From assembly GCA_019090895.1 (NCBI GenBank), contig JAHRVB010000053.1, positions 1 through 64,000 on the forward strand: a DNA stretch of 64,000 nt, written 5' to 3'. Each line of letters begins with the position of its first letter. Within the stretch, counting starts at the first letter, position 1. This document shows, one piece after another, positions 6,198 to 38,838 of the stretch. A program made the position numbers and the translations under genes. This DNA is from Kangiellaceae bacterium (GTDB taxonomy: Bacteria > Pseudomonadota > Gammaproteobacteria > Enterobacterales > Kangiellaceae). The notes beneath the pieces were generated by a model, which was not told the DNA's origin, did not search any database, and was given only the letters and a program-made list of their open reading frames with translations.

Positions 6198-7413
<1,216 letters not shown>

Positions 7414-7453
7414 TTTTTAACTTTTAATTTTAAACTTAACTATTCCTTACTAG

Positions 7454-7732
<279 letters not shown>

Positions 7733-7775
7733 TCACTCTCGAGTCATCAACTAACCGACATTTGAGGAGATACCC

Positions 7776-8246
7776 GTGGATTTTAATTGGACAATAATAG
7801 GTCAATCGATTGCGATGCTCGTATTCGTTTGGTTTACTATGAAAAACATTTGGCCATTACTTGATGCTGCCATTGTAGAGCGACAAGAAAAAATTGCAGA
7901 AGGATTAGCTGCTGCTGACAGAAGTCAACACGACTTAGAGTTGGCTCAAAAAAGTGCCGCTGAAACCATGCGTGAAGCAAAAGAAAAAGCAGCTGAACTA
8001 CTTGACCAGGCAAAAAAGCGACATGCTGAAATAGTCGATCAAGCTAAAGACGACGCCCGTGATGAAGCGAGCAAAATCAAAGCTGGTGCTGAAGCTGAAA
8101 TTGAGCAAGAAGTACATCGTGCTCGAGAAGAGCTTCGCAAGCAAGTTTCTGTATTGGCTGTTGCTGGCGCAGAAAAAATTCTACAACGTAGCATTGATGC
8201 ATCTGCTCAAGCAGATATTCTCGATAGCTTAGTTGCTGAACTGTAG
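7776..8246 (+). CDS. atpF: ATP synthase Fo subunit b
   Basis: Peripheral-stalk subunit: one N-terminal membrane helix (IIGQSIAMLVFVWFTMKNIW) followed by a long charged coiled coil rich in Ala, Glu and Lys that reaches F1. Its 156 residues match the bacterial b subunit. The start is GTG with GAGGAG upstream. It is followed 13 bases later by atpH. Confidence 0.96.
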   Translation: MDFNWTIIGQSIAMLVFVWFTMKNIWPLLDAAIVERQEKIAEGLAAADRSQHDLELAQKSAAETMREAKEKAAELLDQAKKRHAEIVDQAKDDARDEASKIKAGAEAEIEQEVHRAREELRKQVSVLAVAGAEKILQRSIDASAQADILDSLVAEL

Positions 8247-8259
8247 ATGAAGGTGGCCC

Positions 8260-8796
8260 ATGGCTGAATTAACTACATTAGCAAGACCTTACGCCAAAGC
8301 GGCGTTTGAATTTGCCATTGACGCAAAACAACTGCCCGAGTGGTCAGAGATGCTTAATTTTGCATCTCTGGTTGTTGGTGATGAGGCGATGCAAGAATTG
8401 TTGACTAGCCCTCACCTCACTAAAGATGATCAACAAGAAGCAATGCTAAAAGTTTGTAGTGACAAACTTAACGATAAAGCAGTTAACTTTATCAAGCTTC
8501 TTGCTCAAAATGGTCGTTTGGTCGCACTGCCTGAAATTGAAGTTCTTTTCAATTTCTTGCGAAGCGAGTTTGAGAAAACTGTTAAGGCGCAAATCACTTC
8601 AGCGACTGCATTGAATGAGCAACAAATTTCCCAAATCAAAGAAAAACTAGCGGCTAAATTAGGTCGTCAAGTTGAAGCAAGCGTAGAAATTGACGCTGAG
8701 CTATTGGGTGGTTTGATTATTCAAGCAGAAGATTTAGTAATTGATGGTTCGGTTCGCGGTAAGTTAGCCAAACTGTCAGATACATTAAACGTATAA
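8260..8796 (+). CDS. atpH: ATP synthase F1 subunit delta
   Basis: Links the b stalk to the top of the alpha3beta3 head. The 178-residue protein has the N-terminal six-helix domain starting with LARPYAKAAFEFA and the C-terminal GGLIIQAEDLVIDGSVRGKL signature that identifies the OSCP/delta family. It sits in the canonical position between atpF and atpA. Confidence 0.96.
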   Translation: MAELTTLARPYAKAAFEFAIDAKQLPEWSEMLNFASLVVGDEAMQELLTSPHLTKDDQQEAMLKVCSDKLNDKAVNFIKLLAQNGRLVALPEIEVLFNFLRSEFEKTVKAQITSATALNEQQISQIKEKLAAKLGRQVEASVEIDAELLGGLIIQAEDLVIDGSVRGKLAKLSDTLNV

Positions 8797-8837
8797 AATG
8801 AACGTAATAGACGTCTATTAATAAAGGAAATCTGAGC

Positions 8838-34827: not shown

Positions 34828-34873
34828 TAGTTTCAGTGAAGATAACTCGTTAGAGAACAATATTGTTCAATAA
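34814..34873 (+). pseudogene. Possible xerC remnant (19-codon ORF at the expected xerC start)
   Basis: An ATG at 34814 overlaps the DUF484 stop in the way xerC normally does, and opens a 19-codon frame beginning [10 protein letters not shown] before a stop. Nothing resembling the Xer catalytic domain follows. It could be a vestige of a deleted xerC or a chance ORF. Confidence 0.2.
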
Positions 34874-35149
34874 ATTTAGAAGCCGTGAGAACCAGAATGA
34901 TTGTTCTGGTTTAATCTGTATAAATTTATTTGAAACAATTGAATAAGCTACTCTCGAATATGTACTAACATATGCTCTCTCCGTCGGAGCATATCTCACA
35001 GACCGGTGTTCTATTGTGACTTGTCGAATCCTGAGCAGTACCAACGTTGTTAATTCTTACAAGCACCTTGAAAACCCAAGTTCGTGTAGCTTAAGACTTT
35101 CAAATGCTAGCATCTTTATGAAAAAGTACTATCCAGGGCGACGAAAAAA
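34828..35149. other. Intergenic region in place of xerC, with hairpin
   Basis: A 322-base gap between DUF484 and the HAD gene, where xerC would be expected. It contains a perfect 8-bp hairpin (AACCAGAA / TTCTGGTT, loop of 6) at 34890-34911 with a weak T-rich tail, possibly a terminator for the dapF operon. No coding sequence is supported. Confidence 0.5.
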
Positions 35150-35833
35150 ATGACTTATACGAAAATAAAATTTCTGAGTTTTGATTTGGATAATACACTA
35201 TATGATAACCAGCCTGTGATTGAGTTGGCAGAACAAAAATGCAAAGAGTTTCTGCAACTTCAATTTACAAACCAAAGGATAAAATTTGATTTTCAGACCT
35301 TCCTAGAATTACGCAAAAAGACGATAAGAATCGCAAAGTCCAACCATGAACAGAAACAAATCGAAAATCTTAGTAGGTTGAGAAGAGAGGTATTGATTGA
35401 ATTTTGCCAGGACTTAGAAGAATCAACACAGACTGCCGAACAGGCGTTAAAAATTTTTCTAAAATATCGTAGTAAAGTTAATTTGGTGACACCGATTTTA
35501 TCAATGATGAAAACGCTTTCAACTGATTTTAAAATGGTGAGCATTACTAATGGTAATTGCGACCCTAGTCTCACAGCGTTAGCTGTATTTTTTGTTAAGA
35601 ATTATTCGCCTGTCGACGATTTTCGAGCAAAACCCAATCCCGAAATGCTTATTAAAGTAATGGATGAATTTTCCCTAAAACCGGAAAATATCCTTCATAT
35701 TGGGGATAGCGTTAGTTCCGACGGAGAAGCCGCGAAAAGAGCCGGTTGTCAATATCTACATTTCTCTCCGTTTGAAAATGAAGGCGTCATCGCTGCACAT
35801 TGTGATCATCTACTGGTACAGCTAAGAAAATAA
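35150..35833 (+). CDS. HAD-superfamily hydrolase, YigB-like
   Basis: A 227-residue haloacid-dehalogenase phosphatase: motif I FDLDNTLYDN, motif II SITNGN, motif III Lys in RAKPNPEML and motif IV HIGDSVSSDGEAAKRAG, the usual YigB order. In E. coli YigB dephosphorylates FMN and other small phosphates. It normally follows xerC; here it follows the gap. The methyltransferase gene begins only 28 bases later, so it may share a transcript with the borosin genes. Confidence 0.85.
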   Translation: MTYTKIKFLSFDLDNTLYDNQPVIELAEQKCKEFLQLQFTNQRIKFDFQTFLELRKKTIRIAKSNHEQKQIENLSRLRREVLIEFCQDLEESTQTAEQALKIFLKYRSKVNLVTPILSMMKTLSTDFKMVSITNGNCDPSLTALAVFFVKNYSPVDDFRAKPNPEMLIKVMDEFSLKPENILHIGDSVSSDGEAAKRAGCQYLHFSPFENEGVIAAHCDHLLVQLRK

Positions 35834-35861
35834 GGAGAGGGCTATCGATAATCAAGGAAGT

Positions 35862-36653
35862 TTGGTTGTTGTGGGGACCGGTATTTTAACGCCGGCTCAT
35901 CTTACTCAAGCAGCGATTTCTAAGATCAAATCAGCTGATATTGTTCATGCACTTGTCCCTGACCCGCTCGGACTATCAACGATTAAAAAACTTAATTCTA
36001 AGCTTTGCAACCTTGCAGAATTTTATTATGACATTAATAGTGACCGTAACGGCGAGAACCGATTAGAAAGTTATGATCGTATGGTCGAAATCGTTTTAAA
36101 AGATGTATTTCATGGACTAAAAGTTTGCTGTATTTTTTATGGTCACCCTGGAGTATATGTATACCCATCTCATGTGGTGATTGAAAAAGCGAGAAAAGCC
36201 GGATACAAAGCTGAAATGCTACCGGCTATTTCTGCAGAAGACTGTTTATACGCAGATCTAGGCATTGATCCGGGGCGATGCGGAAGTCAGTCATATGAGG
36301 CGTCCCAGTATTTGTTTTATCAACACACCACTAACACCTTTGCAAATATGATTTTATGGCAAATTGGTGTGGTCGGCGATGAATCGCTAAAGAGGTTGGA
36401 GCCCTCAGAGTTTGGACTTGCAATGTTGGCAGACAAGTTATCCAATTTCTATCCGCAAGATCACGAGGTTATCCTTTATGAAGCTTCCCGACTTCCGATC
36501 ATGGATTATCGCTCGGATAAGATAGAACTGAATCAATTAGTTCAAGCAAAAGTAAGCACCATTACAACGTTAGTTGTTCCTCCGTTATCGAATCTGCCCA
36601 TAAATAGGGAGTTTTGCGAAAAGTGGAATATAGACTTAGAAAGCTTAAATTAA
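35862..36653 (+). CDS. Split-borosin peptide backbone alpha-N-methyltransferase (SonM-like)
   Basis: Tetrapyrrole-methylase-fold enzyme predicted to use SAM to methylate backbone amides of the peptide encoded next door. From my recollection of SonM of Shewanella, the shared blocks are: SLVVVGTG at the start, ENRLESYDRMV (Arg67 and Tyr71, in the region of the catalytic Tyr/Arg cluster), YGHPGV 93-98, ISAE 123-126, DLGIDPG 132-138, SQSYEASQYLF, ILWQIGVVG and YPQDHEVILYEA. The 263 residues match the family. It lacks the fused substrate tail of fungal OphMA, so it is of the split type. TTG at 35862 is the first usual start codon, but its ribosome site is too close; an ATC at 35844 has AAGGAGAGG at ideal spacing and restores the residues preceding GSLV. 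Confidence 0.88.
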   Translation: MVVVGTGILTPAHLTQAAISKIKSADIVHALVPDPLGLSTIKKLNSKLCNLAEFYYDINSDRNGENRLESYDRMVEIVLKDVFHGLKVCCIFYGHPGVYVYPSHVVIEKARKAGYKAEMLPAISAEDCLYADLGIDPGRCGSQSYEASQYLFYQHTTNTFANMILWQIGVVGDESLKRLEPSEFGLAMLADKLSNFYPQDHEVILYEASRLPIMDYRSDKIELNQLVQAKVSTITTLVVPPLSNLPINREFCEKWNIDLESLN

Positions 36654-36732
36654 ATTCGCAACTAATAGCCATTTGCAGTTTATGCCTATTCGTTGTATAA
36701 AGGTTATAGGACGAACCATAAAAGGGTATATT

Positions 36733-36951
36733 ATGAGCCGGCAATTAACCGATTTCTTAACCAATTTGTCAACAGATGATGCTCTCGTAGATGCTTTTAA
36801 TAATGATAAAGAAAGTACGATGAAAGCGTATGGTGTATCAGATAAACATATCGAATTAGTAATCAATAAGAACTATGGTGAAATTCAAAGCATATTGGGG
36901 GCAGACTACACCATTGCAAACAATAGTGTTATCAAAGCATTTAAGAAGTAG
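36733..36951 (+). CDS. Borosin precursor peptide (SonA-like)
   Basis: A 72-residue peptide starting MSRQLTDFLTNLS. Residues about 5-55 form a small all-helical leader/recognition domain of the LigA-like borosin-binding type: DDALVDAFNNDKESTMKAYG, in part, then GVSDKHIELVINKNYGEI. The C-terminal tail from about 57 (ADYTIANNSVIKAFKK) aligns by eye with the methylated end of SonA, placing the SVIKA segment over its modified hydrophobic residues. The ATG at 36733 has AAAGGG seven bases upstream; a longer in-frame start at 36673 would add an implausible tail. It lies 79 bases after the methyltransferase. The family recognition is strong for so short a protein; the modified residues are inferred. 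Confidence 0.85.
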   Translation: MSRQLTDFLTNLSTDDALVDAFNNDKESTMKAYGVSDKHIELVINKNYGEIQSILGADYTIANNSVIKAFKK

Positions 36952-36978: not shown

Positions 36979-38838
36979 ATGAGTTCTCGTAGATTTTTCA
37001 TTTCGTTGTTCCCATTCGTCATATTATTTTTGGTTGATGTGGGATCAGTGAAAGCAGAAGATCAATCCTCAACCTTTTTAAATGAAGAAGCTTATCAGAA
37101 ATTAAAACAAGGTAATTATGAAACGGCTTACCAAATTTCTGTTCAGGCATTAAGCCAAGCAAAAGCCGAAAATCAACCCATTGAACAAGCGAGGGCGTTG
37201 AGCAATTTGGCCTCAAACCTTTCATACCTCGGAGACAAAGAAAAAGCGTTATCGCTTTATTCGGAATCATTAGAAACGAGTCGACAAGAAAATGACTTAT
37301 TTGGAACCAATCGAGCACTTAATAATATAGCCAGTATTTATTATGATCTTGAAGACCCTGATGAAACCTTAAAATATCGCCAACTCCAACTGGAAAATAG
37401 TTTAGCCTCCAATGATATCGAAGATTTACTCATTGCCTACATAGGGCTAACCCAAGCTTATTCGCTAAAACTCAATCTTGGCGATGCGAAACACTACGCC
37501 AATCTCGCACGACAATCGTTAGTCAATCATCCAAATCCATTCTTGGAAATATATGTTCTTTTGTCAGAGTCTGAAATAGAAGAAATTCAAAAAGATTACG
37601 ACAAAGCCATTAGTTTAATGAACAACGCTGTTTTTATTGCTGAATCCAATGATTTTCACGGCTTAACAGTAAGTGCGAGAGCTAATATAGTTCAATACTA
37701 TTTGAAACAAAAAAAATACGCCGAAGCTATTAGAGTTGGAAATGAAACTCTTGTTAAAGCACAGGAAATAAAACATCAAACTAAAATAATACAATTGAAC
37801 AAATTGCTTTCGGAAGCTTATCAAGCGATAGGTAATTTCGAACAAGCTCTTCATCATTACAAAAAATTGAAATCAGTTAACGAACGCATTATTGACGAGA
37901 AAGTTAGATTATTGGGTGAAGTTACAAAAATAGAACGTCAAGTGTTTGAGAAAGAAGAGCAACTGATTAAAATGGTAAAAGACCAAAAAATACTTTCGTT
38001 GATGCTTGATAAACAAAAACAAAATCAATTAATTTGGGCTGCTATTGCAAGTGCAGTTTTTATTCTATTATTCTTTATTTATTACCGGCTTAATAGTGAA
38101 AAGGAGATACATCGCCAAAAATCACTTAATAAGCGATTGGAAGAATTAGACGTTATAAAAGATCGCGTATTGACCAATACTTCACATGAACTGCGTACAC
38201 CATTAAATGGAATTATAGGATTGTCAGAGATTATTATTAAAGATGAGCAAAGTGGACTCTCAGAACCCACGATACATTCGCTCCGTTTAATTAAGTCTTC
38301 AGGTGAACAATTGGCTAGGGTAATTAATGATATTCTGGAACTTTCTAAGCTTAAGAGTAATAAGCTGACGATCGTTAATACAAGGTTTAATTTAAATGAA
38401 CTCATTAATGATGTGGTAGCTGTTTGTTCTCCACAAGCGAATCAAAAATTATTGCGGGTTACTTACCGAGAGATAGATAATGCGGTGATAGCTCAAGATA
38501 GAGGGCGTTTACAGCAAGTCCTTTTTAATGTGATTGGAAACTCGGTAAAATTTACAGAAAATGGCGACATAGATGTTGTCGTAGATATTAAAAATGGTGA
38601 GATTGAAATTATCGTTAATGATACCGGTATTGGAATTCCCTTAGAAAAACAAGAGAGGATTTTCGAAGGGTTTGAGCAAGTTGATATTGGTAATAATCGC
38701 AGACAATCGGGTTCAGGTTTAGGATTAGCAATTAGTCGTGGTATTTCGGAAGCGATCGGAGGAGAACTTACGCTAACTTCAACATTAGGAAAAGGAACGA
38801 GTGTTAAGGTTCTAATCCCCAATATCTCAGTTAGTTAG
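36979..38838 (+). CDS. TPR-domain sensor histidine kinase
   Basis: A 619-residue membrane kinase. The signal peptide covers about 1-26 (VKA-ED). A periplasmic part with about six TPR-like repeats (ARALSNLASNLSYLGDKEKA, in part) runs to about 300, then a coiled coil, a membrane helix near 355-375 (LIWAAIASAVFILLFFIYY), HisKA with phospho-acceptor His403 in NTSHELRTPLNG, and HATPase with N-box VLFNVIGNSVKF and G2-box GSGLGLAIS. No receiver domain and no response-regulator gene are adjacent. It starts 27 bases after the precursor gene on the same strand, so it is likely co-transcribed; whether it senses the peptide or is only a neighbour is unknown. Confidence 0.9.
   Translation: MSSRRFFISLFPFVILFLVDVGSVKAEDQSSTFLNEEAYQKLKQGNYETAYQISVQALSQAKAENQPIEQARALSNLASNLSYLGDKEKALSLYSESLETSRQENDLFGTNRALNNIASIYYDLEDPDETLKYRQLQLENSLASNDIEDLLIAYIGLTQAYSLKLNLGDAKHYANLARQSLVNHPNPFLEIYVLLSESEIEEIQKDYDKAISLMNNAVFIAESNDFHGLTVSARANIVQYYLKQKKYAEAIRVGNETLVKAQEIKHQTKIIQLNKLLSEAYQAIGNFEQALHHYKKLKSVNERIIDEKVRLLGEVTKIERQVFEKEEQLIKMVKDQKILSLMLDKQKQNQLIWAAIASAVFILLFFIYYRLNSEKEIHRQKSLNKRLEELDVIKDRVLTNTSHELRTPLNGIIGLSEIIIKDEQSGLSEPTIHSLRLIKSSGEQLARVINDILELSKLKSNKLTIVNTRFNLNELINDVVAVCSPQANQKLLRVTYREIDNAVIAQDRGRLQQVLFNVIGNSVKFTENGDIDVVVDIKNGEIEIIVNDTGIGIPLEKQERIFEGFEQVDIGNNRRQSGSGLGLAISRGISEAIGGELTLTSTLGKGTSVKVLIPNISVS

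Follow-up and report, generated by a model that had tools for sequence, protein, structure and literature searches.

A candidate split borosin pair encoded beside a TPR sensor histidine kinase in a Kangiellaceae bacterium

Three adjacent genes of a Kangiellaceae bacterium almost certainly include the enzyme and precursor of a split borosin pathway, and the third, which encodes a membrane sensor histidine kinase carrying tetratricopeptide repeats (TPR), is very likely to encode a functional partner in that pathway. The genes lie within the stretch of 64,000 nucleotides analysed here (contig JAHRVB010000053.1, positions 1 to 64,000), which we call the window. Because the enzyme and precursor genes adjoin a membrane sensor gene in the window and in dozens of relatives, the arrangement suggests that bacterial borosin peptides act as signals. 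We favour, by a modest degree, a reading in which the locus supplies the biosynthetic part of a module for peptide signalling whose receptor is the TPR domain, and we hold the chances to be about even that the tail of the precursor is the ligand of the TPR protein. A more general proposal, which we offer tentatively, is that backbone N-methylated ribosomal peptides constitute a class of extracellular signals in Gram-negative bacteria, detected by membrane TPR receptors with interchangeable phosphorelay or c-di-GMP outputs, of which this locus would be the histidine kinase version.

The unit is preceded on its 5′ side by genes for a class-I adenylate cyclase, dapF, DUF484 and a yigB-like HAD-family protein (35150-35833, + strand), the last being the first of four + strand genes at this site. 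An earlier note, made from the sequence of the window, had placed the locus in just such a housekeeping neighbourhood. The enzyme gene, recognised by homology as encoding a borosin alpha-N-methyltransferase related to SonM, ends at 36653 (+ strand) and is separated by 79 bases from the gene for the 72-residue precursor, a SonA homologue with an ATG start (36733-36951, + strand), which was identified by homology, conservation and structure modelling. After another 27 bases comes the gene for the 619-residue TPR sensor histidine kinase (36979-38838, + strand), assigned from Pfam matches to TPR_12, HisKA and HATPase_c and from its linkage to the pair. Since the next gene is on the opposite strand, approximately 22 bases away, the unit ends after the kinase gene. 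The features that the note had listed are all present: the open reading frame from 35862 to 36653 on the + strand, which begins with TTG, the peptide, the gap between them and the motifs it quoted. Its limits for the locus (35862-36951) stop short at the 3′ end, where the conserved third gene was missed. Scans of the window revealed no Rfam or tRNA features, and promoter and terminator scans gave no signal above shuffled expectation. A separate observation concerns the roughly 320 bases between DUF484 and yigB (34828-35149), which hold no obvious gene; in many gamma-proteobacteria, xerC occupies this interval.

A phmmer search of the PDB aligns the enzyme over its full length (residues 6-268) with SonM of Shewanella oneidensis (7ltc_A, E = 1.8e-63) and over approximately residues 5-258 with fungal borosin enzymes of the fused type (2.5e-50 to 3.4e-38). 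SonM residues Y58, R67, Y71, Y93 and W166, the roles of which have been described (PMC8429565), correspond to Y62, R74, Y78, Y100 and W173 of the enzyme and are invariant in an alignment of 12 sequences. With both the match and the active-site residues in place, the SonM-like methyltransferase proposed in the note is upheld. The enzyme is 263-270 residues long and is fused to neither clasp nor core; it probably N-methylates the backbone of its small partner peptide. By sequence, the locus is assigned to the type IV split borosins, a known and widespread class of which the pair is a further member.

The note had also raised the question of whether the closest homologues might be cobalamin or siroheme methylases, in which case a tetrapyrrole methylase would merely sit beside an unrelated small protein. 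Such an identity could draw on a match to Pfam TP_methylase (3.7e-18) and on weak matches to CobI/CbiL, but the closest homologues proved to be borosin methyltransferases. The sole tetrapyrrole enzyme matched in the PDB, a precorrin-2 methylase, appears at 6.8e-4, over 50 orders of magnitude behind SonM. The best score against the NCBIfam tetrapyrrole models is 24.7 bits, below every curated cut-off (at least 92.9), and both the precursor and the active site are conserved. Homology thus rules out this identity in practice, and we assign it a negligible probability.

The exact start of the enzyme gene is less clear-cut. In relatives, the ATG start aligns with an ATC at 35844, where the window has no ATG, and six bases before this codon lies AAGGAG (35832-35837, + strand), a putative ribosome-binding site that overlaps the stop codon of the yigB-like gene. 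The TTG at 35862 is the only standard start codon close by, and the frame remains open 5′ of it. The frame that begins with this TTG is real, but the true start may instead be at 35844, on a non-standard codon. Translation may begin at a rare start codon or at the TTG, or the draft genome may contain a sequencing or assembly error. The ATC found where relatives carry ATG might also be taken as a sign that the gene, with no ATG, GTG or TTG at the aligned start, is decaying or untranslated. We consider this very improbable because the frame of 263 codons is intact, every catalytic residue is kept and the ribosome-binding site is good; furthermore, the TTG could serve as a start at a cost of only six residues, and a sequencing error is possible in this one draft assembly.

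Residues 5-57 of the precursor match SonA (phmmer, E = 1.3e-4). Given this match and the full-length match of the enzyme to SonM, the similarities of the two proteins, taken as sequence comparisons, are far beyond chance. An AlphaFold2 model of the precursor (mean pLDDT 85) has helices at residues 3-14, 16-24, 26-32, 37-44 and 48-55, which together form the predicted leader, a five-helix borosin-binding domain spanning residues 1-56 (36733-36900, + strand). The top 24 PDB matches of this model are all SonA chains (TM approximately 0.55-0.70, mostly 0.6-0.7, with an rmsd of about 1 Å for most), with no Foldseek E value below 0.001. A profile built from 32 precursors, some of them from Shewanella, so that its match to SonA is partly circular, also matches the fungal borosin clasp weakly (0.006), the clasp being a distant relative of the leader. 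The peptide is conserved beside the enzyme across relatives, which was a check suggested in the note, and together with the SonA match and the five-helix model this conservation supports the note's description of a SonA-like precursor with a recognition leader. The precursor has no signal peptide.

The leader is followed by a linker and core tail, ADYTIANNSVIKAFKK (36901-36948, + strand). Tails are more variable than the leader. Those of Kangiellaceae loosely follow one pattern, in which N precedes S/T/G and a hydrophobic stretch comes next. In SonA, the methylated residues are L63 and I65 (PMC8429565). An ungapped alignment equates I65 with V66 and L63 with N64 of the window precursor, and a multiple alignment equates them with I67 and S65, respectively. 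Under both alignments the predicted methylation site lies within NSVI (residues 64-67). The note had favoured the region around SVIKA, a stretch that is the conserved portion of the tail among close relatives and spans the positions of SonA L63 and I65, and this choice remains the likely one.

The association of the TPR gene with the borosin pair extends well beyond the window. We surveyed the best 80 of 583 encoded enzyme relatives, namely those closest to the Kangiellaceae enzymes, and it is for this part of the family that the linkage holds: a profile search detects a TPR protein encoded on the same strand within 4.5 kb in 73 of the 80 loci, or 72 if a locus with a different TPR protein (L066) is omitted. 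The output domain is GGDEF in 60 of these 73, a kinase in 6 and none detected in 7, some of the last group reflecting frameshifts or contig ends. The seven loci that have no same-strand TPR gene include four (L111, L115, L119 and L129) where the contig ends near the enzyme or precursor; in L086, the TPR gene is on the opposite strand. In all Kangiellaceae-type loci with this type of precursor, the TPR gene is directly 3′ of the precursor gene, and among close relatives of the window locus it encodes a TPR histidine kinase of approximately 620-665 residues. A median of 8.5 bases separates the stop codon of the precursor from the start of the sensor gene (78 pairs). Shewanella loci with SonA-like precursors (L074, L088) likewise encode a TPR-GGDEF protein 3′ of the precursor. 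The flanks of the trio vary: the window has yigB, Aliikangiella-type loci have a MarR-like gene plus dnaK/dnaJ, and Pleionea has an rnf operon, the names of flanking genes in relatives having been assigned by reading their sequences. On the enzyme tree, the output type switches several times (7 changes, counting all labels) and the TPR part and the precursor persist.

The converse search gives a similar picture. In 61 genomes, 14 sites match the TPR part with E values no higher than 1e-15, and 12 of these are beside a borosin pair. The other two are a distant GGDEF protein and a protein of genome G001, where a transposase gene is present at the place expected for the pair. In this last case (L136, 7995-10901) a TPR kinase gene is located at the contig end with a DDE transposase gene directly 5′; no enzyme was detected in that genome, and this is probably a broken locus. 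The genome of the window itself encodes one further TPR-like protein, which is unlinked (1e-9). Shorter TPR-membrane proteins with neither kinase nor GGDEF are encoded 3′ of the precursor in three loci of the Pleionea type (L041, L043, L047).

Seven loci, from Rhodanobacter, Dyella, Rheinheimera and G005 (a genome of the window's genus), hold two precursor-sensor pairs each. In five of them from Rhodanobacter and Dyella (L075, L083, L089, L093, L103), tandem pairs of precursor and TPR-GGDEF genes stand behind one enzyme gene, and in G005 (L032, 7394-12728) two precursor-kinase pairs surround one enzyme gene, the first precursor being the most window-like. Precursor-to-precursor distances are correlated with those between the adjacent TPR parts (r = 0.77, or 0.40 once enzyme distances are removed). 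When partners were re-paired at random 2000 times within the seven two-pair loci, no arrangement did better than the real pairing and 10 tied with it, roughly the number of ties that would arise if none of the 128 arrangements but the real one reached the observed value. These data fit cognate precursor-sensor pairs. Co-variation of neighbouring genes could also stem from shared descent and the duplication of linked genes, with no physical binding between the products.

The anatomy of the window sensor is that of a membrane histidine kinase, as evident by HisKA and HATPase_c domains behind a transmembrane sensor part. A predicted signal peptide or N-terminal membrane anchor (36979-37056, + strand), hydrophobic from residue 6 and then VKA/ED, precedes a TPR solenoid at residues 31-283 (37069-37827, + strand) that AlphaFold2 models with high confidence (block pLDDT 82-98) as 13 TPR-type helices. 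One long helix of the model then crosses the membrane to the kinase, and hydropathy locates the transmembrane helix at residues ~351-369 (38029-38085, + strand). The HisKA dimerisation and phospho-acceptor domain (38158-38358, + strand), which contains SHELRTP, was assigned by Pfam and by a fold match to HK853, and the HATPase_c catalytic domain (38497-38820, + strand) by Pfam; the kinase part resembles histidine kinases of known structure. Under the usual rules of membrane topology, the TPR part should lie outside the cytoplasm. An N-terminal and a later hydrophobic segment are found in 68 of the 76 sensors that carry an output domain.

In the mechanism that we propose, a dimeric SonM-like enzyme would bind the five-helix leader of the precursor and use SAM to methylate at least one backbone amide of the tail, most likely within NSVI, a step for which homology provides strong support. 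The tail would presumably then be cut from the leader and leave the cytoplasm through functions encoded elsewhere. Linkage and anatomy point to the remaining steps, in which the tail would bind the extracytoplasmic TPR solenoid of the neighbouring gene's protein and thereby switch its cytoplasmic output, a histidine kinase here and a diguanylate cyclase in most relatives. The module contains no gene for an exporter, protease or response regulator, and the cognate response regulator is not encoded adjacently. Because the Pleionea TPR-membrane proteins carry no output domain, signalling would not be universal among these loci.

Two other readings of the trio deserve consideration. RiPP clusters commonly contain regulators, and the pathway might yield a secreted natural product such as an antibiotic or metallophore, with the TPR sensor regulating production, sensing stress caused by the product or giving immunity rather than being the chief target of the peptide. 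Fungal borosins are indeed bioactive cyclic peptides (PMC8429565), and two distant borosin relatives adjoin prolyl oligopeptidase genes; nonetheless, genes for a transporter, protease, macrocyclase or immunity function are absent from the module, with none conserved among relatives, and the sensor is the sole constant neighbour, matched one-to-one with precursors. We regard a natural product pathway of this kind as improbable, but not so improbable as to be dismissed. TPR domains accept many kinds of binding partner, and the whole or methylated precursor could instead serve the TPR protein or the cell envelope as a subunit or scaffold, with methylation protecting or anchoring it. The absence of processing and export genes and the occurrence of TPR-only versions without output are in keeping with this second reading, whereas the TPR part is predicted to be outside the cytoplasm and the precursor has no signal peptide, and tail variation exceeds leader variation. 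We consider it somewhat less probable again than a natural product. If the signalling reading that we favour is correct, N-methylated peptides would join the means by which bacteria control phosphorelays and c-di-GMP.

Enzyme homologues were found in 54 of 99 related genomes, and an alignment scan of genome contigs recovered the 583 encoded relatives, with Aliikangiella, Pleionea and Kangiella among them; a single-sequence scan of the same kind of contigs had returned none. The note's statement that only a handful of split systems have been studied is thus too low as a guide to abundance, given more than 580 encoded relatives from one scan, and a review describes several types of split borosin. 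A phylogeny of 79 enzymes places the window sequence within a Kangiellaceae/Pleionea clade (support 100/97). Because the window's own genome yielded a single enzyme and a single precursor, it contains no hidden paralogues of either. Viral contigs gave no enzyme relatives, there was no match to a PHROG family, and PADLOC includes no borosin-specific family. A recognisable leader-type precursor is present in three of four plasmid borosin loci (from Bradyrhizobium, Streptomyces, Haloarcula and Burkholderia), and none of the four has such a TPR gene within 5 kb. A recent plasmid origin of the window locus was rejected, as no plasmid relative exceeds 41% identity and the sensor is absent from the four inspected. 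On the Bradyrhizobium and Haloarcula plasmids (L140, L143), it is the distant borosin enzymes that adjoin the prolyl oligopeptidase genes, an arrangement that recalls fungal omphalotin pathways.

The closest known system is SonM/SonA of S. oneidensis (PMC8429565; PDB 7ltc), which likewise has a separate enzyme of ~265 residues, a precursor of ~72 residues, a five-helix borosin-binding domain, the same gene order and the same catalytic residues, and Shewanella relatives also have a TPR protein 3′ of the pair. The window enzyme is ~40-45% identical to Shewanella homologues; the third gene carries a histidine kinase where theirs carries GGDEF, and the tail reads NSVIKAFKK versus SYLVISHGNGD of the SonA type (as in L074). 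The methyltransferase domain is shared with fungal OphMA, dbOphMA and MroMA, but in the window the enzyme and substrate are separate proteins with no fused core. As a proposed receptor for a short peptide, the TPR solenoid would also resemble the RRNPP receptors, TPR proteins of Firmicutes. Those receptors are cytoplasmic, often with a DNA-binding domain, and their peptides are re-imported, whereas the window sensor has a signal peptide, a transmembrane helix and a kinase, and membership in the RRNPP class was rejected on these grounds.

At the first description of a split borosin, no split pathway had been tied to a final natural product, and the main text of that report makes no mention of an adjacent TPR protein (PMC8429565). 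Because a GGDEF domain is named among borosin architectures in the Figure 1 legend of Xu et al. (2024, PMC11395268), part of the link, that of borosins to c-di-GMP enzymes, had been noticed before. In the borosin literature that we searched, whose scope did not extend to the main split-borosin surveys of 2022-2024, so that earlier notice is possible, there was no pairing with a diguanylate cyclase or tetratricopeptide protein, the sole co-mention of a histidine kinase was unrelated, and neither a TPR histidine kinase partner nor an established function for split borosins was reported. A near-constant, one-to-one TPR sensor partner offers a concrete candidate function for these systems, open to experimental test.

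Several unusual loci were also encountered. In L059 (~7000-8817), a borosin leader is followed by approximately ten core repeats of the AIIKGYA type, which resemble SVIKAF in the window precursor. Directly 3′ of the L059 precursor, in place of the TPR gene, stands a gene of the DUF3391/HD-GYP type (the c-di-GMP phosphodiesterase type). In L066 (1383-3185), a 600-residue FAD amine oxidase-like protein carries a fused precursor-like leader and tail at its C-terminus, with the enzyme gene located 3′. In L048 (535-3800), the enzyme gene is followed by a gene for a small protein with a different N-terminus (MDKLSRFYLELSTDASKLARFNEG...), possibly another type of leader, and then by a TPR kinase gene.
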